Source: Antedon mediterranea (lineage: Eukaryota; Echinodermata; Crinoidea; Comatulida; Antedonidae). From it: 64,000 bases of DNA. Both the position numbers and the translations under genes were made by a program. The notes under the pieces are model-generated. The model did not search any database and was not told the DNA's origin. It worked only from the letters and a program-made list of their open reading frames with translations. Positions within the stretch are counted from its first letter, which is position 1, and every line of letters starts with the position of its first letter. Positions 10 to 54,008 of the stretch are shown in pieces. The stretch spans positions 25,675,001 to 25,739,000 of the forward strand of contig NC_092673.1 in NCBI RefSeq assembly GCF_964355755.1. The letters are read 5' to 3'.

Positions 10-808
10 TTGCACCAACATGTCCAGAGAATTGGCTACTCGGTGGCAGCAAATGTTACGCTTACGTGGGGGAGAGCAGTGTATATTCTGATGCCGTTGG
101 CATGTGTGAGCAATATAGCAGTACTTTGGTAATTGTTGAATCGTATGAGGAAAACATGTTTGTTCAGTTAGTGAATGGAACTGAACAGTTGGTGAATGAA
201 ACTGAACAGTTAGTGAATGTAACTGACAATGTAGTTTACATTGAGTTTGAAGGCATGTGGCTGGGATTGTCTGATTCATCGGTAGAAGGAGAATGGCGTT
301 GGATTTCCGCAAAAGATGATTCTGTATATTCAAGTAAGACCACCATTAACATTAGAACGATATGTTCTTTATAATTTCTTACATTGAATACCGTGTTTCC
401 GCGGCCATAACAAAATTATTGGTTAATTTGTTAACTAATCAGATAATTATTTAAAAAATAAGATGCTCATGTGCAGACATTACCGACCAACCAATTAGCC
501 AATCACACCGCAACGAATTTCCTTCAGGTCAAAAGTTAAAATTATCCGATATCCGATAATTATCTGATTTAAGATAATTAATTGGTAGGCCTACCATGTT
601 TAAATTGTTTAAATTCACTTCATATTACCTTCTTTTTTCTTATATTTTTACAACATTATTAACATTCTAATAATCTTATCAAATTTAGACTGGAAATCAA
701 TTAAGACATGTGATTCTACTAAGAACTGCGCGTTTATGGATATAAATGGAACATGGGTATCCAGATCCTGCGATGAAGGTTTAACTATGAATGTTGTGTG
801 TGAACAAG
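10..808 (+). CDS. C-type lectin domain, exons 1-2 of the visible part (10-333, 689-808)
   Basis: The domain opens with CPENWLLGGSKCYAY, then C..Y.S.LV.VES, the hallmark WLGLSD, EGEWRW, and in the second exon NW..., CAFMD, NGTW and a final VVCEQ. The intron is phase 1. No EPN/QPD or WND calcium-binding tripeptide is visible, so classical calcium-dependent sugar binding is doubtful; it may be a protein- or lipid-binding CTLD (inference). The loop before WLGLSD is lengthened by a short in-frame repeat carrying three N-glycosylation sequons. The neighbouring discoidin domain also favours extracellular recognition. Confidence 0.9.
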
Positions 809-3800
809 GTATGTGATGGTTAAAAGAACGGATGAGAACACGTGTCAACTTACGTGGACCAATCAAATTTCTTGAATGTTGTTCTAAAGTTGTAAATAAT
901 TTTACAATCCCAATTACGGGCCATAATTATCATAACAAAAATAAGAATACCACATAAGAATTACGTAATAACACATTAATTTCTTATTTAGGAGCAACAT
1001 TTACAAGCAGTGAGCGGTTCCAAATGAGCTTAAACTTCTCATTTAGGCCTTATTCAATCGGAGACTTCATTATAGAAGCTACCGTGGACCAAGACGGTAT
1101 TCTTGAAAATACCGATGCAGCAGAAATCAGCGTATTCCGCCCAGAAGCAGCTAGGGCTGAATTAATGTTAACCTATGCCTTCGATTCTTCCCTATCATAT
1201 ACTGTACAGTAAGTATATATTATCAAACAGTCAGGCAGGATTCTTTTCTTGATCGAGTGCAGTGTTAACGGTATAGCTCGATTTTCGCAGGGCCTAATAA
1301 ACACCAGGTTTTAAATTAATCTTTGCTGTCGAATAAACATAACAAAGATGTAAACAAACGTTTTAGTGAGGGTTCTCTTTTATGTGTGAACATAAATGTT
1401 TATATGTACAACTTTATAAATTGTAAATATAATAATAAATTACTATCGTATGTATATTTTTGATGGGAAACACTGCTCAAATTAGTATAATAATAATAAT
1501 AATAATAACAATAATAATAATAAAATAATATAATAACATAAACCGTGTCTACCATATTATCTAGAATGGTAATTGCAATCAACTACAACCTCTAGACCTA
1601 GACCACAGAGCGAATTGCTTGTGAGCAAAATTACTGCGAATTTGTTTTATTATAATTGTCAATGTCTTTTGCAGATCTTTGATTGAAATACACTTTACTC
1701 TAAAACCAACCATGCAATCGGCTATTACGGCCGCCAACGTGTACATAATGTTTTATCTTCCGAAGTTATTTAATTATGTGTCCGCTAACTGCTCAGAAAC
1801 TGTCATCCCAACAAACTATGGTGTTAAAATATTGGTGAGTTTTTTAATAGAATGCGACATTTACTAATTGGATTGCTTCATTTAACAATAGATATCCCCT
1901 TAAATTAACGTAATATGAATGGACGAACACATGTCGAATAAATGGACGAACACACGAATGAATGGACAAACACACGAATGAAAGGACGAACACACGAATG
2001 AATGAACGAACACACGAATGAATGGACTAACAAATGAATGAATGAACAAACACATGAGTGATGAATAGATGAACAAACACCCGAATGAATGAATAGACGA
2101 ACACACGAATGAATGGACGAACACAACGAATGATCGAAGACACGAATGAATGGACGGACACACGAATGAAAGAATGAACGAACACAAATGAAAATAAGAT
2201 AATCATCAGCAACTGATAAAACTCTATTGTTTGTTCATACTATCAATAATTACATGGAATTGAATATAACATAATAATATGCAAATAATGAATGTTAATG
2301 AGTGGAATGGTACACATAATAGCATAAGGTGAATGCTAGGCGAAGTTGAAATATAATTTTTCATTATTGACCGAAAAAGCGAAAAGATTTTTTTTTCGTG
2401 CATGAAAGATCTGTAAAAGTACTATTGAACGACCGTTCAATATACTGCGTACTATTGCACGCCATGTGACCCGCAATCGTCTAATCAAATGACAAGAATT
2501 TATTTATATGTTATATAATATGTATAACTTACAAAGCTGTGAGACCATACCAACTATGTATGCAACACTATTTAGCAACAAAATTGAAGTTCGCATAAGT
2601 TTCAGTATTTATTAATTTATTTGCTAATGTGAAATGTATCCATTTCTATTAACAATTATGTGAGCTGTCCTTTCCTCCTTTTCTAGACGTCCAATATATT
2701 TCCAGGAGAAGAACCTCTTCAGTTTAAAGTAACGTTTTCTGTTTCATCGGACGTAAGCCTATTTAAAGAGAAAAATATATGCAAAGGAACAATATTTGTC
2801 AGTACTGTTTACAACCAAACGTATTTTGAAGGAAGTGAATACGCAGAGAATCATTTATTTGAAATCAAAAATTTGATCACGATTGACGTTACTCATCCTG
2901 ACTTAGGTACGTAGTGTGTTTGACGTACTGTGTGTAAATAACATTATTAACACACATGCTTTTGTTTTAATGATGATGATCGGATGGACTTTAAGCCGCG
3001 TTGGTACCATGAATATGAAAACCAAAGTATGCGATAAATAACTACGGTTGCACATTATTCGAACAGAACATTATGGGATAATCTACCGATTTTCCCCAGT
3101 TTCCAGTTAAGCGTGGTTTCCATTTGTGACTACGCAATGTGTTACATTAATACGTAGTTGCGTTGCGTCCTATTGGAAATATACATAATTATACATTGCC
3201 TTCTAACTCGAAAAAGTTTTATAGTTTTATATATTCAATTGATTATTATACTGTATTTAAATTGTCTTATTTTTATTATTAATACTGTACATTAATTTCT
3301 AACCTTACAGGATTGGTCCCGCGCTGCACGTCACCCGTGGCACTTGGTATGGAAAGTGGCCGCATAAAAGACTGCCAGATTACGTCATCAGAAGCCCCAG
3401 ATGAAGACGCGCCTGCGCACAATGCCAGGTTAAACATGACAAATACGGGTACTTTTTGTGCATCTGTTGAACTTGATTATAGATGCTATTTTATTATATA
3501 TCTTTTGACAGGGTTTTTAAACACAAGTGCTGCAAAAGCCTCCCCCATCCCCAACCACCCCATCCAGCCCAATGACATATACAAGGTCCTCAATATCATA
3601 TTGTCCTATGCAATATACAGTAGAACCAATCCGTTGGCACCAGAGACATATTACCAGAGAATCCAGTAACATCCCTTGCCGACAATTTTGATGTCCTGTA
3701 ACTCTTTGTTATGTAAATAAGGTTTCCCCTTAATAGAAGTTTTACTGTACTTAGACATAATACATCATCTTTAATCTTATACATTTACAGCCTGGAAAAT

Positions 3801-6800
3801 ATACCGAAAACATGAGCTGGATAACCATGATAGTTGGCTAGCGATAGATCTACTCTATAAAGCAACTATAACGAGCATAGCTACACAAGGCGGCTTGCGG
3901 GTCGGAACGTTGCATGATTTTCAGGGTTCGATTGGAAGTTTTCAGTTACTTTATGGTACAAAGAAAGGCGTCTATAAGGTGGCTTTACCCAGAATACAGG
4001 TAAATGTGACATCTACTGTAGGCCTATGAGTCCGTTACTGACTGAATTATCGATCCGGTTAAGCTTGGTTCCCACTAGAACGTAACGCAAGGACGTAAAC
4101 GCAACGCAAGCGTTTAACCAATGACAAGTTATAGACAGTTAGCAATCACAAGCGAATAAGCCATCGCTTGTGATTGGTCAATTCGCTTGCGTTGCGTTAC
4201 GTCCTTGCGTTGCGTCGCTAGTGGGAACCACGCTTTAGTTGGATCCTATAGCGACACGACAGCGATAAATGTACATACGTAACCAACTTACCCATGTAAA
4301 TAATAGGCCTGGACAGAACCTATTACTTGAGACACACAACAAAACATAACGTTGTACTGCCATTACCAATAGCACAATATACTTCTACCACTAAAAACGA
4401 CTCTTTGTCAATGAATGTTAAATGTTAATGTTAGAACTCATAATTTACCTTCGGATATTCGATACCTCTTGAAGGGTAGTCGATCGCGTGTGTCTGTTTG
4501 AAGATTGTAATTGTTTTCTGCTTTTTTATATAATTTCTAGAGTGATCCAAACAACAAAACGTATTTTGAACATGGTATACTTGACCCGAGTATTGTAAAG
4601 CACCACAGCCTTTTACCAGCCGTCGATGCTCGCTATGTTATGTTCAAGTTAGAACGTTACTGTCTGCATCATTTTGCAAGCATGAGAGTGGAGTTGTTCG
4701 GTTGTTATTACGACGACTTCAATGATACAGGTATATCAAAGCACCGTTGTTTTTTTTTCTTTTTCAAGCAAGAAATATTAAACATAACTTACCGTTCCTC
4801 ATCGTACACCACTCTAGATGAGTGGTGCAAGAGGCAGGTAGGCCGGTCGTGGCCCTCTAGTAGCTAAAACGTGTAAAAATCAAGAACGTAATTATTTTAG
4901 GATTACAAAATAATCTAAAAGGCCATCACAACCACTGCCGTAACGTTGATAACGATCCCTCTGCCTCTGGTGATATATTTTATATATATGATATGATATG
5001 GTGATCTGGAGAAAACTGCTATGGTCATTTTCCGTTCATTTCACCAAACAAGTGTGAACTTTGCTATGAGCACGCCATTATTAACTACCAGTAGCGGATC
5101 CAGGATTTTGAAATAGGGGGAGGGGGGGGGGCCTTAAAGTAGTGAAATGAATTGCTGAACTTAATTTGATGTCCTATCTTTTGCATTACAATTTGTGAAA
5201 TGTTTGGGCCCCGCATTGAATCCGCCTCTGACTACTGACAACGCATTAACATACTATGTGGCCGTATTTCCAGAATGCTATAGAATGACAGATGCTGTTG
5301 ATTATCGAGGCTCAGTCAATATCACCGTAACTGGGAAAACGTGCCAACTTTGGACATCACAGACACCCCATAGGCATACAAGAACTCCAAGCAATTATCC
5401 TGATACGGGTTTAGGCAGTCACAACCACTGCCGTAACCCCGATAACGAACCAACTGCCTGGTGTTATACAACAGATCCGACCTCTAGGTTTGAATTTTGT
5501 GATATCGGCAACCCTGGAGAAAATTGTTACGGTATTAGTATAGTTCTTCAACGTAGCAAAACAGTGTACCTCACTATCACGCCATTTATAGTTATCACCA
5601 CACAAGGCACTTGGTCTGTTTATTTGTCTTATGTGTGTATGCCTGATAACTGTTCTTTTACAGACGACAGAGTTTTATGTACGTTTTATATTTTGAGAGA
5701 TACATAAGCTAACAGCAATGCATTCACAGTGCTTTTATGTATGAGTAAACTCGTCTCTGTCCCGTCAAGTGGCAATGCCGTTCGTTGTGCAGGCTAAAGA
5801 ATAGGCCTAGATGGTTCGGATCTGGCGGCTTGGCATTCTATCAGATGTATGTTTTATCGCACTATAATAGTTTTAACACCACATTTGTATTGTATAATAA
5901 CATAGATTTTGGTTTGTATATAGTATTTAGACTGTTGATATTATAAACTTTGCACATGATACGATCGTAGTTCTGATAACAACAGTTTCTCTGCGTTTTG
6001 ATCAATAAGCTTCGACGTATGCAAGGATATAATGTACAGTATATTAGTACAACCCTGTTTAGGGACACAAAATAGTACGTGTCCCCTTTATTTGAATGTC
6101 CCTTAAGCATGGTTCCCACTAGAACGCAACGCAACGACGTATTGACGCAAAGTGCTGTATTGCGTTATCACAAGTGGGAATCGACGACGCAACAACAGTG
6201 CTGCAAATATCGCAGGTTTGATTTCACGCAGGCGAGGGCAAACACAATTGTTGGAAGGGCATTTTCTTCCGTTGCGTAGGTTGCGTTACGTTGCGTCGCT
6301 ATTGGGAACATAAGCTTAAAGCTTGGTTCCCACTAGAACGTAACGCAAGGACGTAAACGCAACGCAAGCGTTTTAACCAATGACAAGCGAAGTTATAGAC
6401 AGTTACCAATCACAAGCGAATAAGACATCGCTTGTGATTGGTCAATTCACTTGCGTTGCGTTACGTCCCTGCGTTGCGTCGCTAGTGGGAACCACGCTTT
6501 AGGAGTTAGCCGTAGTGCTAAAATAAATATTTCCTCTGGCTCTTTTTAGGGAAAAGTCTCTATTAACAGAGACGTATTATAAATTGTGTCTGAATTATTG
6601 ATGTATGCTATATTGGTGAGATCACCTTTCCATAATTAATACGATATTTTTATTATCCATACTATTTTCAGATTGTACTGTCTCCAATTCATTCCAGTCA
6701 GGCCTTGGTGAACAATCACGAGGCTTCATGGTAGTTGATGATCAACTATTTGTTTGCGATTCTTTACCGTCCAAATTAGAATACAGTGACGATGCATTCG

Positions 6801-8455
6801 GAAATAGACTTTATTATAACTTTACACGGTGCGTGTTTATTAATGTTTTTATTGTTTAATAACAAAATTAAAATGTAGTTTTAAATCTTCCTAGTACAAT
6901 TCTGGTCATTTTCACTACATATATTAATGGATACACAGGTAGTGAAACAAGTTGTATAACAAACAAAAATACAAATTCTATATCTCTCTCTCTCCCCCTC
7001 CCCCTCTGGAACTAAATAGGCACAATAAGTTTTAATACGAGGATCAACACCTTATTATTCAGTGGACACTGTTATGAAAGGGAATTGTTTTGGGCCTGTA
7101 CTGAACGTGTCTCCTTAGTAGGACTTCTACAAATACAATGTTTATTATTGTTTTTCTTCTGCCCGTAGAAATAATATGTTGGGATCATATTGTATGAAGA
7201 AACGATTTGATGAACAAACTTGGTCACGTAAGTATTATTTACGTCTACGTTAAAGGCACCTATAAAAACAATTCCTGAGGAAATGCGTTTGTAAGAATAT
7301 CTTATAAATAAAACTTAGTCAGGAATTACGTCGCCATTTTGATTGTCACAGACGTTTGTTGTTATCGGTGTATCCTCATTTTTTTGTAACACCCGGGTGT
7401 CACTGGGTTATTGTAAAGTGAGGATGGATGGTACGATCCCTCAATAGGCCTAATATCTTTATTGAAGTCTGATTTAACCTTTCCTCAGGATTATGATACT
7501 TAAAATAATTTAAAGTTTGATGGCACTAGTTACAAGTCGTTATGCGTGATTGATTAATGGATGACGTAATGCATAAACGGCATAAATAGGGAGAAGGATT
7601 TGTAATCTGGGGTGACTGGGAGTCTGGTATGCGTCATACTATTGTAACAAGACATATGTTGCAATTAGTTATACATTCTCTTTCCTGAGCTGATCGTTCA
7701 ATTCATAAAACTGACCAGAATTGCACTTTTCCACTTTTGAAGGCTTGCCACCAGACGTTAGCATGCTTCTAGGTTACGATTCGGAGTCGTTCCATTTATA
7801 CGGCACAAAGATCTCTGATACAAGTGGCACGGCAGTGCGCAGCATTGATAATGGACGTAGCTGGCATGTGATGATGTCATGGATGTATGCCGAAATAAGG
7901 GACTCTTCTACGTTTGTATCAATAACAAACGTGCCAGTAAAGGCAGAAGATGATTTTAATTGGTTGAATCAGTCAAATATTCTTAATAATTATATCATTG
8001 GAAATATAGGAGGTAAGAAGACGGTTTTTATTTATTATCGTATTTGTGTTTTAAAGCTTAAATAATATCTTTCTTTTTTTATTTCATACGCATCCAATAG
8101 CGAGTGACTCGCCAATTACAGGATGGATAAACTATTTAATATTTTAGGTGCTTATTTGAGGCTTAGGAAGTGGAGTTGAAAGAGTCGTGAGTTACAACCC
8201 TGGTACTAGGTCAGGATTGAACCCCGGACCTTAGGATAGGAAGGCAAGCACGCTAACCACCAAGCTACAGCTCTACTTTGATCTGCATGTTCTATATTTA
8301 CGTTTATACATTAACATATTCTATCTATTTTATTTCACTCTATAGCATCCTATGACGGGATATATACGAATGTGAACGGCGACTGGCAAAGACTACTAAA
8401 TTGGAAACAGTGTTGTTTGCAATCGACTGCCAACTATACACAACCATGTGTATAA
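10..8455 (+). CDS. Mosaic extracellular protein: C-type lectin + discoidin + kringle + Asp-box (3' part)
   Basis: Thirteen exons are supported by AG/GT sites and matching phases: 10-333, 689-808, 992-1208, 1675-1834, 2687-2906, 3311-3448, 3791-3999, 4541-4730, 5274-5678, 6672-6828, 7169-7227, 7719-8012, 8346-8455 (TAA). Together they give 866 codons without a stop. The first exon starts after an acceptor, so the start codon and any signal peptide lie upstream of the window. Domain order is CTLD, a beta-rich region of unknown family, F5/8C, kringle, then a unique region with one Asp-box. Many N-glycosylation sequons and cysteines fit a secreted or cell-surface protein, and no transmembrane segment is seen before the stop. 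The likely role is carbohydrate, lipid or protein recognition in the matrix or in immunity (inference). I do not know a named protein with this order. Confidence 0.85.
165..227 (+). repeat. In-frame 21-bp triplicated repeat coding for N-glycosylation sequons
   Basis: Three adjacent 21-bp units (165-185, 186-206, 207-227) encode QLVNGTE, QLVNETE and QLVNVTD. Each supplies one N-X-T sequon. The units differ mainly at the residue after Asn, so this is a recent in-frame expansion inside the CTLD loop. Confidence 0.9.
992..2906 (+). CDS. Beta-rich extracellular region of the mosaic protein (exons 992-1208, 1675-1834, 2687-2906)
   Basis: The three exons join in phases 2 and 0, and give about 200 residues of alternating hydrophobic and polar character with sequons (NCS, NQT) and few cysteines. 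Patterns such as AELMLTYAFDSSLSYTVQ and SLIEIHFTLKP suggest immunoglobulin-like beta sandwiches. I cannot assign a named family. The donor after codon 'GTA' at 1206 and the acceptor at 1674 are clean. The intron after 1834 holds a 20-bp minisatellite. Confidence 0.75.
1913..2190. repeat. 20-bp minisatellite in intron
   Basis: About 13 degenerate copies of a 20-bp unit, GAATGAATGGACGAACACAC, lie in the intron between 1835 and 2686. The open frames on the opposite strand here are only translations of the repeat. Confidence 0.9.
3108..3185. mobile_element. Short degenerate MITE-A remnant
   Basis: TTAAGCGTGGTTTCC and GTTGCGTTGCGTCC match the ends of the MITE-A family described at 4061. The internal part is deleted. 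Confidence 0.45.
3311..4730 (+). CDS. F5/8 type C (discoidin) domain of the mosaic protein (exons 3311-3448, 3791-3999, 4541-4730)
   Basis: The domain starts C.SPVALGMESGRIKDCQITSS, the typical N-terminal signature. It continues with NARLN, W......D..WLAIDL, the core ITSIATQGG, and ends MRVELFGC, the canonical C-terminal beta strand with closing cysteine. Discoidin domains bind phospholipid, collagen or sugars. Introns are phase 1, 0 and 1. Reading through the donor at 3449 would give an alternative C-terminus, but the next exon fits the family better. A MITE-A lies in the intron at 4061-4236. Confidence 0.92.
4061..4236. mobile_element. MITE-A fold-back element, copy 1
   Basis: The terminal inverted repeats AAGCTTGGTTCCCACTAG and CTAGTGGGAACCACGCTT enclose further nested inverted segments (AACGCAAGGACGT, CAATCACAAGCGA). 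Flanking TTA on both sides suggests a T/A-rich target duplication. There is no coding capacity. It lies in the discoidin intron. Confidence 0.9.
4919..5088 (+). pseudogene. Decayed duplicate of the kringle exon
   Basis: CATCACAACCACTGCCGTAA at 4923-4942 is nearly identical to 5418-5437 of the real kringle exon. GGAGAAAACTGCTATGG matches GGAGAAAATTGTTACGG at 5516-5532, and similarity continues through CACGCCATT. The tryptophan codon is changed, sequence around it is deleted, and AT repeats are inserted. It is therefore a relic of a tandem exon duplication, broken by base changes and indels and without usable splice sites. Confidence 0.8.
5089..5230. mobile_element. 142-bp MITE with 5-bp target duplication
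   Basis: The ends CAGTAGCGGATCCA and TGAATCCGCCTCTG are inverted repeats, and the element is flanked by direct ACTAC (5084-5088 and 5231-5235). The interior is G-rich near the left end. It sits 43 bp upstream of the kringle exon acceptor, between the relic and the working exon. Confidence 0.8.
5274..5678 (+). CDS. Kringle domain exon of the mosaic protein
   Basis: The exon follows the acceptor TTTCCAG at 5267-5273 and restores codon GAA with the phase-1 G of the previous exon. The kringle reads ECYRM....YRGSVNITVTGKTCQLW, SQTPHRH, the conserved HNHCRNPDN, AWCYTTDP and FEFCDI. All six expected cysteines are seen. About 55 further residues with three cysteines follow before a GTACGT donor at 5679 (phase 1), which pairs with the next exon. 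Open frame upstream of 5274 is intron and MITE, not coding. Confidence 0.9.
6105..6317. mobile_element. MITE-A related element, variant 2
   Basis: It shares the ends AAGCATGGTTCCCACTAGAA and the CATAAGCTT-type right terminus with MITE-A, but has a different core (GCTGCAAATATCGCAGG, GGGCATTTTCTTCC). The same variant recurs at 37037-37230. Confidence 0.8.
6319..6499. mobile_element. MITE-A, copy abutting variant 2
   Basis: A nearly full MITE-A begins directly after the right end of the variant-2 element, sharing the TTA junction. The two form a tandem composite in the intron after the kringle exon. Confidence 0.9.
6672..7227 (+). CDS. Linker exons of the mosaic protein (6672-6828, 7169-7227)
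   Basis: Two small exons with phase 1, 2 and 1 junctions encode about 72 residues. They begin after codon TAT shared with the kringle exon and include QSGLGEQSRGFMVVDDQLFVC and a sequon NFT. The sequence hints at a laminin-G or propeller-like strand pattern, but no family can be named. The donor at 7228 is a perfect GTAAGT. Confidence 0.75.
7719..8455 (+). CDS. C-terminal Asp-box region and stop of the mosaic protein (7719-8012, 8346-8455)
   Basis: The phase-1 acceptor at 7718 gives QLHFSTFEGLPPDVS. The segment SIDNGRSW fits the Asp-box signature S-x-D-x-G-x-x-W of beta-propeller folds (sialidase and VPS10 type). Only one clear Asp-box is seen, so this is either a partial propeller or a convergent hairpin. 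The last exon ends ...CCLQSTANYTQPCV then TAA at 8453-8455, with no membrane anchor. A tRNA-derived SINE lies antisense in the intron between the two exons. Confidence 0.8.
8081..8275 (-). mobile_element. tRNA-derived SINE, antisense in intron
   Basis: Read on the minus strand it starts GAGCTGTAGCTTGGTGGTTA (A-box-like) and has the B-box GGGGTTCAATCC, then a tail ending GGATGCGTATGAAAT. A second copy in plus orientation is at 52415-52600, matching over the whole length, which fixes the boundaries. Confidence 0.8.
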
Positions 8456-11699: not shown

Positions 11700-13400
11700 T
11701 CATCTTACAATAAATGTGCAGCAATGAGGCAAAAGTCAGCTGTAGATTGAAGGGGGTGCGAATATTTTTTTTAGTTCCAGAGTTCCTCTAAAAAGCTAAC
11801 AAGTTTTGTTGTTTCCAACAGTAAGACTAAGATAACATAAGAGCATATCGAAATCTCGGTTAGCAGTCTATATACACTATTCACGTCTCCTAAAATGCTC
11901 ACACTGGCGTTTTGTACAGCTTGTACCAACTCCACAGATTTGCAGGCGTGATGTGGAAAAGGGTTTTTAGTCTATATATGTTGCATTGATCTATAAAATA
12001 ATATCTCGTTTAGCAGTCATTCACCAGTCACATCGCCTATAGACTAGACAATCTCACCCTGGCGTTTTGTACAGCCTGTGCGAACTCTAGAGATTTTCTA
12101 GGCGTGACTTGAAAGGGCTATTCCAGTATTTCGTAGGCCTACCTGTTTTTTTAAACGTTAGTTCCACCTCTTTAAGCCAGTCTACGCCTTGTACAACATC
12201 CTTGTCACTTAATGATTTTATTTTGACATATTAAGCTGCTTATGATTGGGTTATGTTTTGGTCCCAATTCCAAAACAACTGATATTTTAATTAGCCTATG
12301 ATGTTAAATTCACGAGAGTGGAAATTGTCGAACTATTGCAGATCATTCGTTTTCTCTCAAATCTTTAAATATCACGAATTACTAATCATTGTTTTAAATT
12401 ACAGAACTATAATCACACATTATATATATATATGTTTTTCATTTATTTTATTAAAAAAAGCAGTGTTAAAATATTTGACATAGAAATTTTTTTTTTTTAG
12501 TTTTTTGCCTTTTTTATTACGAAATGGCTGAGAAAAAACAAGAAGCGATTTGAAATCATCAGCACTGCTAGCCATTGCAGAACTTAATATATATATTTAA
12601 CAAGGTATAAATAACTTATATAATGATTATAAAGAAGAATAACATATTGCACTATATCATCTTGTATGCGATCTTAACCTTACATGTAAACAACACACAT
12701 TTAAGATATACTTAAATTCCGACTGAAAGTGGCTTTGTGAATTTTAGGTGGGCGTTCATAACAACGCTTACCATATCTAAATAATAAATAAGCTCAAGCT
12801 TCTACTAATAGCACCTTTATAATATAGGCCAAGCTAAAGACAATGAACTACTATATTTCATACCTTTCATTAAAGCTAATATTTTCTATATTTTGCCAAA
12901 ATAAAGCGAAAATTTGGTCTTATTGGAATAATTACTAGCATGACGTCATACATTATGCATTTTAAATGAGATCAATTTTTGGAATTAATTATTCAGGATA
13001 TGGAAAAAATAGTCAAGATTTACATACATGTGGACATTAATGTATGCTGTATAATGTATTTTACTAAGACAATCGATCAATCTTTTTATTTATAATTTGT
13101 TTTTGTAAATTATCACCATTGATAATAACATTAACATTTATAATTCAAATCCTAATATATTTCAAGCATTAACCATACACAGGCACAAAACGTCCACTAA
13201 TAAAAAATAAAATTACATTATAAACTGTATAATAAACATTATAAGATGCATTAAGATATCAAGCGCTTCCCATACTGCAAAACCAAATTATATAACCTGG
13301 ATTAGAAGAATGTCGCCTGATAAAAAAAAACATAATTATAACAATAAAAAATCACAAATATGGAAGTCTTGCCTGATAATTTCCGTTTACCACGTAAATA
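11700..13400. other. No gene seen
   Basis: AT-rich sequence with two diverged copies of a motif around GGCGTTTTGTACAGC (near 11909 and 12061), so an old local duplication of roughly 150 bp is present. No exon is supported. Confidence 0.5.
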
Positions 13401-14429: not shown

Positions 14430-14612
14430 TTAACCACTGCGTGCGCGCGAGAGCCTGTTAATATCGCTTGATAGAACGGGAGAGTAATGCGCAAGCTCAC
14501 GTAAAACAATAAGGTCTCGTCTGTTGATTTCCTCGTCATCAGCATTCGGGCTAAATATCAGAGTTGACGTCACAGGTGTTTGGTTGATGCCTACCAAATT
14601 TTCTATATCCAT
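14430..14612 (-). CDS. Cytokine exon 5: C-D loop, helix D and stop
   Basis: A strong acceptor, CATATTTTTCAG, precedes 14612, phase 0. The exon has 60 codons and TAA. The loop carries the only sequon (NQT), then an acidic DDEE run and helix D (RRDLIVLRELAHY...SSDINRL), ending in a basic tail. The LIF-receptor FxxK motif found at the start of helix D in LIF and CNTF is not seen: the aligned positions are acidic or Asn. Confidence 0.8.
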   Translation of the reverse strand: MDIENLVGINQTPVTSTLIFSPNADDEEINRRDLIVLRELAHYSPVLSSDINRLSRARSG

Positions 14613-17600
14613 CTGAAAAATATGATGTGACTGATAAGACAACGTTATGTTATGAAATTAGTTATAATCGTATTGTTTTTAATTAAAGAATTTAATTATT
14701 ATAAATCAACAAGTATACATCATACATTTTGATAATTACTTTTATAAATGATATGCAAATTCAATGCGAATGAACTCATGTTACCCGCACCTAACTATTA
14801 TTAAAATTCACTATTTAAAAAAAAAATCTAAGTACTGCACCGGAAATAATTATGACCTACCTAATGATGTAATCCAATATTACTAACAGTCATATTGGAA
14901 AAAAACTAATAACATACAATCCGGGTCATTGAAATTAAGGTATACTTTAACAATATGAATAATGCATACTCATTAAAATGAGGTGTTAATGAAGCTTAAT
15001 AATATTATTCCGATTTAAGAGGACACTGAGTGAAACGACTAAGGAGCAATGTATTAAATTTTAACACTACGCTCAACCCATATTCACGAGAGAAGTTACC
15101 ATTTGTGCACATGTTTTATGAATCATTAATTGACATTCATTTTAATTCGCGCTTCAAAATGTTCACGCTATTATATTTATGCGTAATATATTATTAATGT
15201 ATGCTATTGACAATCTTTCGTTCAAAATAAGTGACTAGATCTGCAGTAGGCCTAAACATAAAATAAAAAAGGGTTGCGATTTATCTGTAGGACGTCCCCT
15301 ATAGTATCGAAACTATGTCAGCATTCCAGTTTTTATCCATGTTCGGTACATAACCTGCGGTTTATTTACCGTAATAATCTGTTTGTTTTTAAACGCTTCT
15401 TCTTCAACCACATGTATTACCAAACAATTAGGCCTAATTATAGATAGCTACGTCTACCACAAAAGGAAATAGTGGCTTATTGCATAAGCGTAGGTTATCA
15501 TTTGTAATCGCCATCCCTGATGTTTTCGTGGAGTGGGAATTTTATCACATTCTTAGGCCTGCTAATTTGTGTGTTACTATGTGTACAATTTAATGCAATT
15601 TCACAATGTTTTAATAGGTGAAAATCAAAGCCATCCCGTTCATTTAGCCTAGAGCAACTCTTGCATCTTTTCATGGAGGAATATAAAGTCAATGTCAGAT
15701 ATTGCTTAATCGGAAATGCCATGACAGGGTGGGAACCCTCGTTGACAAACAAAATTCCGTCAAAATGACGACAGATCCGCATTCCACTAATTTGCCCAAG
15801 AAACACGACACTGCTTATAATACTTGGCTAATCCAACTCAAATACCACCATCAGAATAATTAGCTTTGAGTCGGTGTTATGTAATAAGGTATAAAAACAA
15901 TTTGCAGTCATTGTTTTCTATAATATAGGATTTTTAGACAATTTTGTTGTTTTTGAACGGTTGGTGGGTTGTTCTATTTGTCAACCAACAGAGAGCACGT
16001 GTGAATAGCAAATTGTTATTACGTTGAAGATGGACCTTGTTATCCCACGTATATTGCATAACGAACGTAACCTTTAATAAACGCTATAGATAACAATAAT
16101 ATTTACATGTATGAAAATATTAAAATTATTAGTTTAATAAACTAACGGCTAATTGATCTAGTACAAGCCCGGTGTGACATAGAACTATTACTATCTAGGC
16201 CGATGTGGCAGAAACGTTACGTGATTATAACAAGAACTCGGCACCGGGCTCGGCGTTCCACTTCCGTTTACTGAGCGTGTGGGGTTGTATTTAGAGGCCT
16301 GGTGTTTCTTGCGATGATGTCATTGTAGCTAATTCGACGACCGATGCTGCAAACTGACAAAAATTGTCGTAATCGGCTTAAATTCTATTTCACAATTGCT
16401 GACTCATTATAATAACATTTTATTGTTTTGATTTTATATGGATGACCTCTTCCAGTGACAAGTTAATATACTTGTTGTTACTAGTTTTATGGAATTTATT
16501 ATTACGCTGAGTGCATATTTTAAATTTCTAAAATTGTAGGGGTAGAACGGAAATGTTTGTATTGTGTTGTGTTTTTGTTATTAATTAAGCGTTATAGAAA
16601 GTTTTTATATACCCTGCATGGGGTGTCAAAAGTGGAAGTTAAACGTTACACCCTTTTTGATGGAAAGAAAGGAATGAAAAGCGTGGGCAATATGATTTAT
16701 ATAAATCATGTTTATGTTTATTATAACAATTTATTATATGAATCGTAACGGGAAATAACAACATCTAAACCACCCAGGGATGATAATGTCGAGTATTGTA
16801 TTTTGGAGCAAAATCTCCATGGGTATTTAATTTAATCAATCATTTATTTATCTTTATTATTTAAAAAAAAATGATTTGGTTTACATTACAGAAATGTGGC
16901 TGCTACAATCGATGTTTATATTGGCTTTTTTTTATTATTTATGTTCGACAATATTAAACATCACCGATCTATGTATTTTATTACGTTTTACTGAGCGACA
17001 GTGCATACAATACTCCTATTGTTATTAGAACTAGAATAAACGAACTATTGAGTTCATCCTGAATTGCATGATAGGTGGTCAGTGATATTATGAATTTTGG
17101 TTGTTTGACGTTGCGTACTAATCGTGATACGGATCTGGATGAGAAATTCAATCCGAATTGACTGCAGTAGTTTCATTTGGACGATTTAATCAAATACCAC
17201 TTAAGATATTTCTATAATTAAGCCATGATACATCTAAGACATTAAGATTACGCACGGATCTTTACTCCATTAATTTTATATCCTTTTCGTACTATAAATA
17301 CAAAAACTGGACTAAATCACGGCTTTGTGACGACGTGTTGACTAGTTAGCGCCCGTGTGTATTCATAGAGTGGGATATGCTACCGCTAAGATAATACAAT
17401 TTATTTTAAAGATGGGCACTAATTAATTATTAACCATAGAGTGAAATATTTCACTCTTTCCTCTATTTGTATTGGACGTTTAATTGTTCAGTCTATGACT
17501 ATTAGTCGTAATAGTTCAACCTGTAAAGCAGTGCCGCAGTAGTTTAACCAATCGGTGTTGAGGAAGGTTACAGTATGAATAATCATACGTCAGAGACTAT

Positions 17601-20600
17601 CAACGCGCGCGTTCAAATTGTGATATTGATGCCATTAATAATAATGGTAAAAATGATGATACAGTAAACCCCTATTAAGGAGACGCAAGTGTCCCCTTGA
17701 TAGGAGTGTCTCCTGAATAGGCCGTAGAATGTTAAACATACTATTTGCTCCTCGTTCGTTTCATGGGGAAGTGTTCCCTTAATAGAATTGTCCCAAAGGA
17801 GGGTTTAACTGTATTATACATTAAAATGAAATGATTGTGTATACTCACTATATGTTGCAATCCTGCTATCAAGGTGTTTAGTTTTGATCGAATTGCTCGG
17901 AAGTTTGTTCTAAAACTATGTGAACCAGAGTACGTTTGTTCATCGGCTTCCATATATCTTAATGCACGTTCAAATATTAATAGATTTGAAACATGAGTTT
18001 CAAGGACATCTGCTTCCTGGTAACAAAGCAAGAAAAACAAATTCATTATAAACGGAGCGGTGTAAAAAAAAACAATTAGTTTAAGCTTCTTTATTATGTC
18101 ATCGGATGCGTTCCATAGTCAATTAACTAGTGACGTAAGCTATTTTGCAGCAAATTGTACCAGAAATAGGTAAAAAGTTATTTTAGAAAAGTCTTTTTTA
18201 GAATTTGGGATAAGATTTAATACCCTGTTTTCATGCAAGTGTAGTAAACACTGCAGATGAAGATGATAAAATCACTGGCCGTTCTGGAAATTCTAAATAG
18301 GCCTTAAGTCTTTTTTTTAAGGAGTAATTTTGACAGATAATTACTTAGTAGTATTTATTCAAGAATTAATTACTTTTTATGACGCAATATAAATGTAGAG
18401 AATGTGACAAATTTATCTTTGTTCTCCTTGGTATAAGACCTGTAATTAAAATAATTGCTAATGATAATCAACCAAAATCATAAACAGTCTGGTCAGGTAG
18501 TATACTGTTGGTTTTTTAACAAAAGTACCGGATTGTCAAACTGTTAGGTCGTGGGAAAAGCATACCAATATGTGACCAATAATATGCCTCTAATTTGAAC
18601 TGCTTAACAATAAATAAACGTGTTTTTCGTTTTTTTTTAACATAAATTTCTTTTGCTGTTTGTGTAGATTAAATATATGTTACATTGTTTGATGTTTACT
18701 TCTACTCTTCAGTAATTCGGTAATTACTCATATATCATATAAAATCCCAAATGTATTTAATAACAATACATAAATGATTTCACATTAGTACAGAGACAGT
18801 GAACATGCTCGTACTGAAATCATTTCCCTTGTAATAAGACATGGCTCGTACATTACGTCATTTCTATATGCATTGTCTGCATTAAATGACTGAAAGTTGT
18901 GCTATAGGCCTATAGTTAGAATTAATCTATATAATAAGTAATTGCTATTAGGCCTATCATTACATTATGTATTTTAAAAATATAAGCATTCTATTCTCAA
19001 TAGCCGGTAAATATATTTTGACGCAAATAGGATCCCCCATTTCATCCTCCCTCTGTTTTCCTCCTTCCTCTCTCACCGTCCTTCTTTCTTCCTCTCTGAC
19101 CTTCCCTTCTTCATCCTCCCTCCCGTTTCCTTCTTTTTCTCCCCTTCCCTCATTCTTTTCCCCTTCTATCCTTCTTCCTCTCTCCTCTTCTCTCCTTCAT
19201 CCCCTTACAGTAATGACCAATTACTAAACTATATGGCTACTTAGTACTAGTGTAGATCTAGACAGATTTAAAGTATCACAATATCGATTTGTCTACTTAC
19301 ACTTGCAGCGTGCCTTTGTGCGTATGTCCAACTTAAATGATTCGGAAGACCTGTCAAATACCAATTGGAACTCATGGTATGGCCAACCCGTAACGTTTCC
19401 TATAAATAAAATATAACACTGTTATCAAGTGCTTAATACAATTATTCCATAAAATATATAATATTTGTTGCACTGTTAAGGTCAACGGATAGATAAAACA
19501 GACCAGTTAGCCGTCTGATGGGAAAGTCTAGGTCATAAATGATTAGGCTTTTGAACATTTGAATCAGACAAGAGCTTATTAAGTACTATCTGTTAAAATA
19601 ACATAAAACGTGTTGAATTAATGTCGAGCATCCGACAGCCTAACGCACCGGTGCGCCTTCAACCTAGCCCAGTGGAGAAGAACCGCGGGAGAGTCCCAAC
19701 CTGTCTACTATCATAAGCGTGGTCTTCGTACATTTTTACCCATAATTCTGGAAATAAGCCAAGAAACTTGACGAGTATATATGACACATACATACAAAAA
19801 ATCACTTTGATTACGGGAAATAATTGCTTGAATACTAACAATGATGATATTTCAATTATCCGGACTGATCTTTTTTTTTTCTAAACTTGTCGGTTGGATA
19901 GGAAAGGACATCCGGCAATACAAAATGATAATATTGCCAAATACCAGTATTACAATGAAATCTAGTTAACATTTAAAGCCAGTCATTCATGTGTCCCAAA
20001 TTTGTATTACTACGGATAACTTGTGAACAATTAATTGAATGAATTTCTACCACCCGTTGAATAGTTTGCAAAGGTAATTCGGGTTCACACATAATCCATT
20101 GGATTTTATAACAATTTTAATGGGTATGAAGTAATCAAAACAAAAATAACCCTTTTTAAAATTCCTACTGTTTACAAACAGCAACCTTGGAATTATTTTT
20201 ATCATTATACTTATAATATAGATATATGCATAGTATAGTAAAATAACATTACCAGGCTTACAACTTTGCTATCATATGAGCCTGTACTACAGTAGTTTTG
20301 CTTCGATCTTTTACAATTTATCGCGTACTTCATTTCTGACACTCCCTAGCCTTCATTCTAAGATTAATTTTAAAGCCCAGCCATAAGGACACCAATTTTA
20401 TTTTGTTTTTACAAGTTGAATAATTCAATAATTCAATGTAAGCTATAATGTATATTTTACAACACGACTTAAACATAATTCAGTGCCTTTCTTTCCAAAA
20501 TTCAAATTAGCAATATTAAAAAAATAATCTCAATGTCTGCTGCCAAACTTGCAATATTAACGTTAAACCTCCTTGTAGATATACGCTTATTATGTGTTAT

Positions 20601-21132
20601 GTTATTCAAGCAAAATTTTACAATGACAATATTTTATGCAACAAAACAGATACATTTACATAGATACATGGATTTGAACTTACAAATTGACTATATGTCG
20701 AAAATGTCTCCCGAAACATGTGCATTGTCTCTTCCCGCATCGCCGAATATAAACGGGATACAGTTAACGTTGGAGCAGACTTTGCCAATTGTATAAATAT
20801 ACTAAACAAAATCATAACTATATAGACAAAGAAAATAGAAAGATAAAAGTAAAAATACGCTATAAATACAAAAATGCAAAGAAAATTAGAAATGTTAATG
20901 AATCTGGAAAAAAAAGTTAATTTCTTGAATATAAGGAGAAAAGTTAAATATGGCACAATTCACAGCATGCGCTGTTGAATTTAGTCTGTGAGATTAAGAG
21001 ATCAACCAGGTACTTAACCTAACATATCAAAGATGTCATAAGAAAATAAATAAGCAAAAAAATAATATGAAACAATGTTATATTGCTATACTTACAAATA
21101 AAACGTCGAATACTACTTAATATCAGAGCCAT
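14430..21132 (-). CDS. Four-helix-bundle class I cytokine (IL-6/LIF/CNTF-like), complete five-exon gene
   Basis: Exons on the minus strand are 21132-21096, 20817-20684, 19399-19301, 18016-17849 and 14612-14430. They join in phases 1, 0, 0, 0 to a 206-residue protein with stop TAA. Residues 1-26 form a signal peptide, with likely cleavage AKS/AP. The mature part (about 180 residues, no cysteine, one sequon at Asn156) has four long amphipathic helices: about 30-60, 91-117, 122-152 and 172-200. Helix D, LIVLRELAHY....SSDINRL, resembles the CNTF/LIF helix-D pattern VL.EL..W....S..DL. Exon sizes (37, 134, 99, 168, 183) and phases match vertebrate long-chain cytokine genes. The expected role is a secreted ligand for a gp130-like receptor signalling through JAK-STAT (inference). 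The exact subfamily is open. Confidence 0.8.
14642..17660. other. Large intron 4 of the cytokine gene
   Basis: Positions 14613-17848 are the intron between exons 4 and 5 (3236 bp). Open frames inside (15498-15806 minus, 16557-16748 plus) show no domain and no splice signals and are not called. It is AT-rich, with one MITE near its 5' splice site. Confidence 0.6.
17662..17811. mobile_element. 150-bp MITE with TA target site (mariner-like ends)
   Basis: CAGTAAACCCCTATTAAGG and its inverted partner GGAGGGTTTAACTG lie between TA dinucleotides. It ends 37 bp from cytokine exon 4, inside intron 4. Partial relatives are near 3705-3750 and 6032-6100. Confidence 0.75.
17849..18016 (-). CDS. Cytokine exon 4: helices B and C
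   Basis: 56 codons between acceptor TTGTTACCAG and donor GTGAGT, phase 0 at both ends. Helix B is ADVLETHVSNLLIFERALRY, helix C is FRTNFRAIRSKLNTLIAGL, joined by a short turn rich in Ser and Gly. Heptad-like spacing of Leu, Ile and Phe is clear in both. Helices B and C together on one exon is the family rule. Confidence 0.8.
19037..19205. repeat. Polypyrimidine tract in cytokine intron 3
   Basis: About 170 bp of nearly pure C/T on the plus strand (purine tract on the coding strand). The plus-strand open frame here is only this low-complexity sequence. Confidence 0.85.
19301..19399 (-). CDS. Cytokine exon 3: A-B loop
   Basis: 33 codons in phase 0 at both ends, between acceptor TTTATAG and donor GTAAGT. 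The sequence is loop-like with NWYLTGLPNHLSW, then the start of helix B. It is too short to appear as a long open frame and was found from splice sites and phase. Confidence 0.75.
20684..20817 (-). CDS. Cytokine exon 2: signal peptide core and helix A
   Basis: A pyrimidine-rich acceptor ending TATATAG precedes 20817. Two bases complete Phe13, then MILFSIFIQLAKSAPTL gives the hydrophobic core and cleavage site, followed by helix A (SRLYSAMREETMHMFRETF). The donor GTAAGT at 20683-20678 is phase 0. Open frame further upstream on this strand is intron. Confidence 0.8.
21096..21132 (-). CDS. Cytokine exon 1: start codon and signal peptide n-region
   Basis: ATG at 21132-21130 is the first ATG after the TATA box. 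It encodes MALILSSIRRFI plus one base, then a perfect GTAAGT donor (21095-21090). The basic RR before the hydrophobic core on exon 2 is typical of a signal peptide. A short first coding exon ending in phase 1 is characteristic of IL-6, G-CSF, EPO and GH genes. Confidence 0.75.
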
Positions 21133-21276: not shown

Positions 21277-21285
21277 TTTTATATA
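21277..21285 (-). promoter_or_regulatory. TATA box of the cytokine gene
   Basis: The minus strand reads GTATATAAAATGC. It lies 145 bp upstream of the start codon, leaving a 5' UTR of roughly 120 bases without an upstream ATG. Confidence 0.6.
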
Positions 21286-33000: not shown

Positions 33001-34280
33001 GATTATTGATAGTTTTAATTGACGTCATAGAACGTAATATGTTACAAATAATAATATGGAACGCCAATATAAAAACAAAACATGTGATTATTATTTTTAA
33101 AACAAAATAATTGTATTCGTTTTATTTAACATACATTTATCAAAACTTATTATTTTTCATTATAAACGTGTAACCTTTGTATATGCTATATTCTAAAAAT
33201 GTAAATTGTTTAAAAAAATCTCTATTTAAATTAACATAGCAATTATGACGGAAGGTTATGAGTTATTGTTACTATTTTAGTTATATTATTTTGTATGTCC
33301 ATTTCTAAATTTAGAGAAAAAATCTCAATTGGATTTTGGAAATTTGACACATTAATATGAGTAATATATCGACATTGTTTAACAGTTATCCGTGCATTTA
33401 TTTAAGAGCGATTCTCTACTAAGAAAACACAATAGGAGCAATAAAAATAGAATATATCCGATTGTCAACATTAGGGAAGTTTTGGAAGGTTACCACCAGG
33501 CTTTTGGACAACTTTGATTGATAGTTTCTAGGCTAACTTACCCAAAAACAAGACAAATAGAAAGAAACATTAACAATTCTAATTTATTCTGATATTAATA
33601 ATAATGAATTGCTAAATAGGTACATAATGATGTCGTTTATATTATCATTAAAGTTTTTCAAACAATTTAGCGCCACAAATTAAGTCATTATGACTCATTT
33701 GGCGGATATTAGCGATGTACTTTTTGTTCGTCTGCTGAGAACAACAGTGCCACTCATTCAAGTATTTGACCAATCAGAAACGTTGACACTGCGCACAATG
33801 ACAGGAAACACCACCCAGTTGATCAGACGATATAACTGCACAGGCTAGCCATGTAATTTAAATCCACGCATTAGACCTAGCCTCACACCCCCACAAAATG
33901 TATTTTTAGAAAATATAGATTTAATTTAAAGAAATATTAAATTACATATCTACCGGGTATCTATAATAACCGGATCAAAATAATATTCTAATCTGTGGTG
34001 GGCCTACAACTTTGATAATAATATTAATAATGCTATTGTACTTATTTTTTGGGAAGATTCCCTTTTCTTGCCTCCTGATATGTTGTGTCACTACCGCACC
34101 ATGGCATTACTACTAATAATGTACCGTAATAGGCCTACATACATTTATGTGGTCACCAATATTGATAACCAGAAGTAAAAATAGGCTAAACAGATTCTGT
34201 TCCATATTATGGGCAAACAAAAAACATTTGATAAAAAATACAGCATATTATATCGAGAAATAAACTGTCAGAGCATCTGT
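30031..34280. other. No gene seen; one diverged tandem duplication and a possible LINE tail
   Basis: Segments at about 31886-31965 and 32105-32185 share TATAAACA(T/C)TGCTCG and CATGACG(G/T)AGGTA(A/G)CACT, a ~220-bp duplication. At 32695-32850, TGCGCCTTGAGCACTC resembles the 3' end of RTE-type LINEs. A more GC-rich stretch at 30540-30780 and 31000-31170 could be regulatory but shows nothing specific. Confidence 0.45.
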
Positions 34281-34281
34281 A

Positions 34282-34420
34282 AGCTCTGTCTACACTATCA
34301 AACTTTATGTCACAAAAAATGTGATGTGCTCATATATGGACATGATAACATCATATCACTATCATATTTGGACACATCCCACTTTTTTTGTCAAACTCGT
34401 TTGATAGTGTAGACAGAGCT
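34282..34420. mobile_element. MITE-B, full copy
   Basis: Inverted ends AGCTCTGTCTACACTATCAA and TTGATAGTGTAGACAGAGCT, flanked by GTA. The middle is an imperfect palindrome around GTGATGTGC and CATATCACTATC. The open frame across it is incidental. Confidence 0.9.
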
Positions 34421-35120: not shown

Positions 35121-35858
35121 TTTCAACCATGTTAACTCCTCAATCCAATACATTTAGTTCATTTTTTTGGTTTTGTATGTATGTATATATTTTATATGGA
35201 CAGTTAGGCCTAGTCTGAAATAAAGTTGAATCGGATTACCGGTAAATAACAGAATTGCTAAAGGTTAGCAACATTGTAAGACCAAACGATAGGACCTAAT
35301 GTTATTATGCCTATATAATTCTTAAGCGTAAATCTCTTGGATGTGCTATATTTTAATAGGTCATCGGCATGTATTAATGCTATACCATTTTAAAATAAAC
35401 TGACACCAATTTTTTTTTTAATGAACAAATGAATCCTTAATATTCAAGAAAACTATTTAATGCAAACAAGTTTTCCTGTACGCTTGCGATTATCGAATGT
35501 TATGATTTTATCGGATTTTTCAGTTTAAAAAAAAAAATAAAAATCAGACTCAGAGGCGAAAATCAGGAGGGTGGGGAGTGTGAGAGAGAGGCTTGTATAT
35601 ATAATATATATGTTTTGCCTAATTGATGACATAGATCTGATAATTTAAGCCAAAACATTGATGTCAACAACCGCCCACATCCCGCGCCCATATTTCTTTT
35701 CTACTATTTATATGTTAATAATTGCAATGTACTACTTCGGAGACATGATTATGAATCCTTAACCTTCCACTTAATTTAAAAATGTCCTATTTTCAGTAAT
35801 TAATTAAAAATTCAAAGAAATCAACCTTGTTAGCCATAATGACAGTGATACTGATCTA

Positions 35859-36036
35859 AAGCTCTGTACACTATCAAACTAGTTTGTGATGTGCCCAAAT
35901 ATGGTGGTGTTGTAGTGCCCAAATATGGTGGTGTTGTGCCCAAATATGGTAGTGATATGACATCATCATGTCCATATATGAGCACATCATATTTTGTTGT
36001 CACATAAAGGTTTGATAGTGCAGTAGACAGAGCTTT
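35859..36036. mobile_element. MITE-B with internal duplication
   Basis: The ends AAGCTCTGTACACTATCAAA and TTTGATAGTGCAGTAGACAG are present, with the internal GCCCAAATATGGTGGTGTTG block repeated two to three times. Confidence 0.85.
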
Positions 36037-37036
36037 AGTCACATTTCAATCGTCTGTTGTGATAGGCATATTCATTAATTACTTAATACAACATTATCCA
36101 TTTAAATGATTGTGTGTAATTGTTTTATAGTCGTTTTATTCAGAATGGCCTTGTAATTTGTATGTAGGCCTACATCATTTACGATTCTATCTGGTTTTGT
36201 TTTGGTTTTTTTTTTATTCTCTTCTCTCACCAGTTGTTTTGAAAACCCCTGTTGTTTTAATTTCAAATACAACTTGTATATTTTGTTGACATGTGCATGT
36301 TCACTTGTCAAAAATTGTACAATATGAGTTTGTGATTGTGACTGTATACCAACAGGGCCTATTTACCTCCAGTCGTCTCTGACCCACTTTGTTTGTAAAC
36401 CTACCTGAAGCAAAAGCAACATTCTGGGTTAGGTAACCCGGTTCCCATATGTCTGCCGCACCTGCATGGACAGGCAAATGAACCCTCCCTACCAGGCTAA
36501 GCCGTACGATTTCAGCATCAGTTTGACAAGCGGACAATAGTTTTCACAGGTTGCCAATTTATAGCAACTTTTGATACAACGATGAAGTTATGATCGAATC
36601 AGCATGCTATTTATTGATTACACATGACGAATTAATGTCAGGCATCAATGCCTCGTTTAAAATCATTCGTTTAGTCAACAAAACGAAGCTGTTTTTAGGA
36701 GAATAAAGAACTGACTGTTACGATAGACTGGTTCTAGTGTATGGATACATTTTATCCTCATCAGCCTCCTCAAATGTCTTGGTATAAAGGTACTGAATTA
36801 TGACTGCTGGATATGGGAGATGACAGCGGGGTGGTTCCCCACCTCACCGTAAAATTAACAGTAATTTACACAAATTACTACCACAATTCGTGTAATCTTA
36901 TACAAAATGATTTATGTTAGGTTTCCTGTTTTACACAGTTGATTTTATTCATGTCCCAATTAAACTGTATTTATTTAACACAGTTCAAATATTGTATGTG
37001 ATGGTATCGTAAACTCGTGCGCATTTAGCGTGCGTA

Positions 37037-49229: not shown

Positions 49230-49915
49230 TTTGTTGACGACACTGTCTTGCTGTCTCTCCTTCAAAATTCACAGGACGGTCATGGTTCCGCATTAGATGG
49301 TTTTATCCAATTTTGTGGAAACTCCTACTTGGAACTCAATGTGACCAAAACCAAGGAGATTATTGTAGATTTTAGGAAGGAGAAAGGACGCAGCCCTCTG
49401 GTATCCCCCACAAATGACGAACCAGCGATATTGTCCATTCCTTTAAATACCTAGGTACTATATTTGAGGACATTCTCAGCTGGGAATTAAATAAAGAGGC
49501 AATAGTAAAGAAAGGACACCAGAAACTTTATCTGTTAAGGAAGCTGAACCATTTTAATGTCGATAAAAGTAATTCTCATGGTTTTTCATAATTCCTTTAT
49601 TGAGAACGTTTTAACTTTTTTCCTTTATATGCTGGTTTTTTAGTCTTAGGGTCAAAAAGAGAAACTCACTACAAAGAATTGTTAACTTAAGTTCTAAATT
49701 AATAGGTTGTCAACTTCGTAGCTTATCTTCCTTCTGTGACATGCAAACTCTAGAAAAAAGTAGAGCTATTCTTGTTAACCATGCCTTGTTCAGTGATTTC
49801 GAGCTCATGCCTCATGGGCGTCGCTTTCAATGCCCGGCATGTAGAACAAACTGGAAAAGAAATTCGTTTTTGCCAATTGCCATCTGACTCTTAAATTCTT
49901 GAACTTTGACTCTTG
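49230..49915 (+). pseudogene. LINE reverse transcriptase, C-terminal fragment (CR1/jockey type)
   Basis: The frame starts at a FVDD box (a variant of the YADD catalytic motif), then VLLSLLQ, GFIQFCGNSYLELNVTKTKE and DFRKEKG. After a frameshift near 49430 it reads SFKYLGTIFEDILSWEL, LYLLRKLNHFNV, and after further breaks ALFSDFELMPHGRRFQCPAC and NSFLP. The order matches the palm/thumb and C-terminal end of non-LTR reverse transcriptases. It is truncated at the 5' end, as usual for LINEs, and broken by several indels. Confidence 0.85.
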
Positions 49916-53560: not shown

Positions 53561-53804
53561 TATTTTGATTTTATTTAATTTGTGTTGATTTCTAAAACAC
53601 GAGCGACGCTGTTGACAATTTCTCGTCAACCATAAATATCACCAATAATTATTATCACTTGAAATGACAATAATATCCATATTCACTACTTAACAAGAAA
53701 TATATTTTTAATTTAATTTGAAATACTAATTTGTTAAGTAATTTATTACATGTTTAATGAATTAGAGAGACGGACGTTAACTCTAAAGCCATTAATGAGA
53801 AAAA

Positions 53805-53956: not shown

Positions 53957-54008
53957 AAGACTAGTATCTTTTATTCCGTTGACGGTAAGGAACGTTGTTA
54001 GTGAAACA

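Follow-up and report, generated by a model that had tools for sequence, protein, structure and literature searches.

Do the long-chain class I helical cytokines, which in vertebrates include growth hormone (GH), EPO, IL-6, G-CSF and CNTF, have relatives outside the chordates? The question is raised by a minus-strand gene in a 64,000-nucleotide (nt) stretch of the genome of the crinoid Antedon mediterranea (assembly GCF_964355755.1, contig NC_092673.1, forward-strand positions 25,675,001 to 25,739,000; hereafter the window), where an original prediction, made from the letters alone, had seen a complete five-exon gene for a secreted four-helix cytokine of the CNTF/LIF type. Our analysis suggests that this gene and two paralogues on the same contig are likely to encode secreted helical cytokines of the long-chain class I type, together a small family, and it does not bear out the CNTF/LIF placement.

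A 2026 BLAST survey of 18 metazoan phyla or subphyla reports IL-6-family ligands only in vertebrates and traces IL-6R-like receptors to molluscs (PMC13203501), and another report describes a gp130-like receptor in Ciona (PMC1963337). A 2022 review describes an amphioxus GH-like (GHl) type-I helical cytokine of 208 residues with several related genes, states that no gene of this kind was detected in acorn worms or sea squirts, and treats the origin of the superfamily as undetermined (PMC9010856). The remark in the original prediction that the accepted invertebrate ligands are mainly the insect Unpaired (Upd) proteins left out the amphioxus cytokine. For echinoderms, we found no report of a class I helical cytokine among the titles and abstract openings of the matches listed from the open-licence literature.

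The gene and its two paralogues

The gene consists of five minus-strand exons with GT..AG borders, which are open throughout and join, as had been predicted, into a product of 206 residues with intron phases 1-0-0-0. Its parts, in order of transcription, are:

21279..21285, minus strand: TATA-like box, 151-153 nt upstream of the exon 1 ATG
21096..21132, minus strand: exon 1, 37 nt; start codon, 12 codons plus 1 nt, ending in phase 1; the least certain exon
20684..20817, minus strand: exon 2, 134 nt; phase 1 to 0; predicted to complete the signal peptide and encode helix A
19301..19399, minus strand: exon 3, 99 nt; phase 0 to 0; predicted to encode the A-B loop, which carries a GLP motif
17849..18016, minus strand: exon 4, 168 nt; predicted helices B and C; phase 0 to 0
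14430..14612, minus strand: exon 5, 183 nt including the stop; predicted C-D loop, helix D with a conserved proline, stop codon
14030..14429, minus strand: AU-rich 3' region, 8 ATTTA and 2 TTATTTAWW motifs in 400 nt
13085..13090, minus strand: possible poly(A) signal, the first AATAAA 3' of the stop

Ranked without family knowledge, exon 3 came first among the 14 candidates able to feed exon 4, and exon 5 first among 19 terminal candidates. By splice and coding score the full chain ranked fifth of 266, and third of 81 among chains with a hydrophobic start, exons 2 and 3 being common to all five listed chains of the latter kind. Exon 1 is the only exon with close competitors, being one of several that would fit the gene. 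TATAAAA occurs in 14% of the 400-nt bins of the window, which makes the TATA-like box weak when taken alone; the AU-rich counts downstream of the stop are reached by 0.3% (ATTTA) and 1.9% (TTATTTAWW) of bins.

A search of the 354-Mb assembly (18 contigs) with the window product returned eight matches, four in the gene itself and four in two further loci (L016/L018; C4:20.407-20.409 Mb, minus strand, and 20.4296-20.4316 Mb, plus strand), which lie ~20 kb apart on opposite strands of the same contig, ~5.3 Mb from the window gene, and hold the paralogues P1 and P2. Each locus carries an exon 4 match (expectation value (E) 2.8e-6, 39% identity; E 0.001, 42%) and, downstream in the same orientation, an exon 5 match (E 0.04, 35%; E 0.34, 38%), and exons 4 and 5 of the window gene are confirmed because they recur in order and on one strand at both places. 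A search with P2 recovered the same three loci and no fourth (at least eight matches).

Exons 2 and 3 of the paralogues were chosen, with the window gene as guide, from open exons bounded by splice sites; by splice and coding score, the chosen exon 2 ranks 2 of 29 in P1 and 6 of 16 in P2, and the chosen exon 3 ranks 7 of 38 and 2 of 24, respectively. Without stop codons, exons 2-5 measure 200/105/168/171 nt in P1, 140/99/168/177 nt in P2 and 134/99/168/180 nt in the window gene, and the phases of both paralogues from exon 2 on (1-0, 0-0, 0-0, stop) are those of the window gene, the first phase being read from exon 2, as no exon 1 was fixed in either. Across exons 2-5 the three proteins share 31-33% identity and 37 invariant columns, full-length pairwise scores lie at z 34-43 above shuffles, and the second codon position shows the fewest differences among the genes. 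All three keep GLP/GVP in exon 3 and D(L/V)LET at the start of exon 4. The N-terminus of P1 is extended and rich in Thr and Ser.

Individual exons were also compared. The chosen exon 3 ranks first by similarity in both P1 (of 38) and P2 (of 24), and the score of window exon 3 against P1 and P2 was reached by 0 and 1 of 1,000 shuffles, respectively, in global alignment (local p 0.009 and 0.017). Exons 2 and 3 taken together are alike between P1 and P2 (0 of 1,000 shuffles, both global and local), as clearly is exon 2 alone (0 of 1,000, global). The 400 nt after the stop hold six ATTTA and one TTATTTAWW in P1 and three and one in P2; AU-rich 3' ends are thereby present in two of the three genes. 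We regard exons 3-5 of the window gene as firmly real, exon 2 as probably real and exon 1 as an uncertain, candidate assignment.

The exon plan is that of several vertebrate cytokines. The human genes for IL-6, CSF3, EPO and GH each comprise five coding exons; the exon lengths add up exactly to those of the proteins and imply, by arithmetic, phases 1-0-0-0, the A-B loop falling in exon 3, helices B and C in exon 4 and helix D in exon 5. The window gene and its paralogues match this plan, with borders after helix A, before B and in late C. Published reports describe a five-exon G-CSF gene in man, mouse, carp and other teleosts (PMC6389648), and, for the IL-10 family, IL3, IL21 and IFNL1, five exons whose introns fall at analogous positions between the helices; IFNL2/3 have an additional short first exon, which breaks a codon after its first base (PMC2654155). 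Among the entries listed by literature searches on gene structure there was no table of IL-6 exon lengths; those of EPO and GH were not searched for.

Evidence for a probable long-chain class I kinship

To place the protein, we compared the mature product with a profile of ten vertebrate IL-6-superfamily sequences. It scored 22.2 over 110 columns, collinear through helices B and C, the C-D loop and helix D, a value above those of all 600 shuffles (maximum 21.0), all 595 chunks cut from 236 Escherichia coli open reading frames (ORFs; maximum 19.2) and all nine helical non-cytokines (maximum 12.0). On the same scale, each known member, tested against a profile built without it, reached 24.8-59.5, IL-23A 36.9, IL-12A 19.5, GH 18.9, EPO 14.1, leptin 13.7, and IL-2, IL-4, IL-10 and IFN-alpha2 11.8-12.8; four sub-group profiles gave the product 9.6-19.7. 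The match was specific, with z 5.9 for the IL-6 superfamily versus 1.9 for GH/EPO, 0.6 for class II cytokines, -0.5 for short-chain cytokines and -0.1 for helical non-cytokines (150 decoys per profile, the class II profile comprising four sequences only). Identities as a class II cytokine, a short-chain cytokine or a helical non-cytokine were rejected, these last three profiles being without a match.

The same signal stands out within the window. Among its 539 ORFs of at least 40 residues in six frames, the ORF of exon 4 ranks first (20.6 versus 15.8 for the next), and a profile search without introns found its best place at exon 4 (33.1 versus a maximum of 28.3 in 60 random windows). A spliced search again took exon 4, but joined it to pieces other than the proposed exons. 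Searches with single helices gave 120 peaks, with helix B at rank 2, helix C at rank 75 and the B-C combination first; the helix A and helix D profiles did not find exons 2 and 5 in the window. An alignment of all three genes scored 22.8 over 127 columns, from the A-B loop to helix D, and the trio reached 22.0 against a 17-sequence long-chain profile (shuffled maximum 14.9).

The product contains, as claimed, no cysteine, and it has one N-glycosylation sequon; its strongest hydrophobic stretch, at residues 12-23, resembles a signal peptide and agrees with the one originally proposed. The prediction of four amphipathic helices fared less evenly: moments at 100 degrees exceed shuffles for helices A (p 0.03) and C (p 0.02), helix D is borderline (p 0.08) and helix B has no such moment (p 0.46). 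AlphaFold2, run on exon 4 alone as a single sequence, predicted a helical B-C hairpin with helices of 27 and 22 residues (mean predicted local distance difference test (pLDDT) 87.7 for this model; 72.6-87.7 across five models). Exon 5 alone was modelled as a loop followed by helical pieces at exon residues 26-43 and 45-58 (pLDDT 60), with the break between them near a proline conserved in all three genes; helix D and its putative kink at this proline are less certain. The topology of the whole bundle is our inference.

Together, the profile match, the exon 4 hairpin and the paralogues support the earlier view that the gene encodes a secreted helical protein of long-chain class I type. Judged by sequence, the window gene has a real but thin link to the vertebrate cytokines. 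The mature protein, of ~180 residues, would form an up-up-down-down four-helix bundle without disulphides, and it may bridge class I receptor chains of the gp130/IL-6R/GHR-like kind and so start JAK-STAT signalling; the AU-rich element would make for a short-lived, inducible messenger RNA, as for many cytokines.

Branch placement and alternative explanations

If these are long-chain cytokines, the next question is whether they belong to a known branch. A CNTF/LIF/CLCF1-type ligand that binds LIFR, as the original prediction proposed from the pattern of helix D, would fit the fall of the window helix D onto that of CLCF1 in end-to-end alignment, the place of CLCF1 among the better pairwise matches of the window protein (z 1.9-2.1) and the best match of one paralogue, which is CNTF. 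FxxK at the N-terminus of helix D is the LIFR-binding site III motif; it is present in five of five vertebrate members and in none of the three genes here. Pairwise local scores of the window protein stand at chance for CNTF (z -0.2) and LIF (-0.1), as against 1.2 for IL-6, 1.9 for CLCF1, 2.2 for EPO and 5.3 for GH, and CNTF and LIF have two or three exons where these genes have five coding exons. The Pfam comparison with CNTF and LIF_OSM that had been proposed, a weak test here, gave no match in the product; in the genome Pfam CNTF had no match either, nor did it in 14 control genomes, and absence is not shown by that search. On the missing motif and the chance-level scores we reject this placement, which we consider quite improbable.

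The strongest pairwise match raises another reading, that the window gene is, like the amphioxus GH-like gene, orthologous to growth hormone or closely related to it. Human GH matches the window protein best (raw score 56, 0 of 500 shuffles), collinearly from residue 1 through helix C; exon 2 and GH helix A are identical at 10 of 31 ungapped positions, with none of 300 shuffles and none of 200 decoys as good, and BLASTP gives E 0.002 as a single comparison. This value becomes ~0.03 once the 17 references tried pairwise are allowed for, the GH/EPO profile is weak, as noted, and the match is not common to the paralogues, whose best pairwise matches among 11 references are CNTF and IL-6 (z 3.3 each). 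GH has four cysteines in two conserved disulphides, and neither the window product nor the invariant columns of the three genes contain any. Orthology with GH was thus not accepted, and we think it unlikely. No branch is favoured by all three genes, which fits an early offshoot: the family would be a sister or early offshoot of the vertebrate long-chain cytokines, outside the CNTF/LIF branch.

A number of observations, including the discordant best matches of the paralogues, weigh against the cytokine reading or the gene model beneath it. Composition-based coding scores are low (among 504 candidate exons on the minus strand, exon 2 ranks 172, exon 3 in its own frame 63 and exon 4 14), and a crude gene finder missed the gene as a unit: at the lowest exon penalty it called exons 2 and 4 exactly, but within a chain spanning the entire window, and at higher penalties it called exon 4 or part of exon 5, or else nothing at the locus. 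Window exon 2 is weakly like that of P1 (p 0.003 global, 0.09 local) and hardly like that of P2 (p 0.027 global, 0.82 local), the exon 2 chosen for P2 ranks only 9 of 16 by similarity, the exon 4 donor of P2 is weak (2.7 bits) and its ATTTA count is ordinary (the 95th and 99th percentiles of bins being 4 and 6). The profile signal comes almost solely from exon 4, with none from exons 2 and 3 alone and little from exon 5, and it depends on the make-up of the profile (13.1-26.9 for the product with leave-one-out profiles). Taken alone, the paralogues score 14.9 each, which 27 of 595 decoys reach and which is not significant, and they align to the profile out of register; the trio score was matched or exceeded by one or more of 200 versions of its alignment with shuffled columns (maximum 23.2). 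On the structural side, the strongest moment of helices C and D lies at an angle other than 100 degrees, the models cover exons 4 and 5 singly rather than helices folded together, and a fold search with the exon 4 model returned 14-3-3 and other generic helical hairpins, with no cytokine among the best 50 matches per list. In Pfam the product matched no family at E up to 10 (HMMER filters on), and phmmer against the PDB gave one meaningless match; these misses are weak evidence, because human CNTF and CLCF1 likewise fail to find each other in the PDB by sequence. A genome search with the receptor family PF09240 gave one weak match on contig C10, below the cut-off and with no convincing exon around it, which was set aside.

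Two further explanations draw on these points. The low coding scores, the crude gene finder's failure and the competitors of exon 1 might suggest exons picked by eye from noncoding DNA. Such an artefact would have to accommodate the ordered recurrence of exons 4 and 5 at two paralogous loci, counterparts of exon 3, the high full-length similarity and the sparing of second codon positions; it is already refuted for exons 3-5, and we assign it almost no probability overall. A lineage-specific secreted helical protein, resembling cytokines in helix layout and gene structure by convergence, is in keeping with sequence similarity at the edge of detection and with how common helical hairpins are. 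It would require the intron phases and the exon-to-helix plan shared with GH, EPO, IL-6 and CSF3, the specific profile match and the AU-rich 3' end all to be coincidences, and it seems to us fairly unlikely. Within the cytokine reading, we tentatively propose, as a possibility that falls somewhat short of an expectation, that the three genes are an ancestral-type long-chain class I family in a non-chordate, whose five-exon, 1-0-0-0 gene predates the split of GH, EPO, IL-6 and CNTF and whose products may serve as ligands for the IL-6R/gp130-like receptors that echinoderms, hemichordates and molluscs are reported to have.

Surrounding sequence and relation to known systems

Elsewhere in the window, a separate multi-exon gene model on the plus strand (102-8012) has a C-type-lectin-like start (Pfam Lectin_C, E 0.006, below the cut-off) together with an F5/8 type C domain (E 4e-7), and a kringle ORF lies at 5165-5707 (E 4e-23). 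By eye, an ORF at 49218-49454 (plus strand) resembles a piece of a non-LTR reverse transcriptase, and a LCLHYQTLC-KK-DVLIYGHD-like peptide recurs in ORFs on both strands at 34185-34412, 35830-36045 and 53792-54022, probably as a dispersed repeat. Rfam and transfer RNA scans of the window found nothing. The assembly is made up of eleven large contigs (22-41 Mb) and seven small ones; no mitochondrial contig was recognized in the first 9 kb of C16-C18. Size, contig number and composition make a vertebrate unlikely and, with the octamer described next, suggest an echinoderm, perhaps a crinoid. The palindromic octamer TAGGCCTA occurs 36 times in the 64-kb window versus 0.43 expected, at ~22 per 64 kb over nine sampled stretches and 15 times in 9 kb on contig C8. 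Eight 9-kb chromosome samples without N have 30-38% G+C, and long open tandem repeats with NYSELLGTTR-like and TYLEHTRNIPG-like motifs occur on small unplaced contigs (L033 on C16, L035 on C18).

Ligands this divergent are easily missed by BLAST surveys; here they were recognized by gene structure and profile, backed by the paralogues. In a non-chordate host they would be candidate ligands for orphan receptors, and long-chain class I ligands would predate the chordates. Five exons in phases 1-0-0-0, GLP/GVP in exon 3 and D(L/V)LET at the start of exon 4 offer a search recipe for further members.

Among known systems, the insect Upd proteins, ligands of the IL-6R-like receptor Domeless, are likewise non-vertebrate ligands (PMC13203501), a likeness of description only. 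The amphioxus GHl, also compared by description, is a non-vertebrate helical cytokine of similar length and low identity to the vertebrate members (PMC9010856); the eleven large contigs and the G+C content of the present genome do not fit amphioxus. The three genes share with CNTF, LIF, OSM, CT-1 and CLCF1 the predicted form of a four-helix secreted ligand, with a helix D alignable to that of CLCF1, and differ from them in lacking the site III motif and in having five exons. As for the vertebrate long-chain class I cytokines GH, EPO, IL-6, CSF3 and IL-11, the window gene departs from these in its freedom from cysteine, its position beyond the reach of Pfam, its conserved helix D proline and its non-vertebrate host, and resembles them in its length, in a start that looks like a signal peptide, in the predicted arrangement of its helices and long A-B and C-D loops, in its five coding exons with phases 1-0-0-0 and in its profile match.

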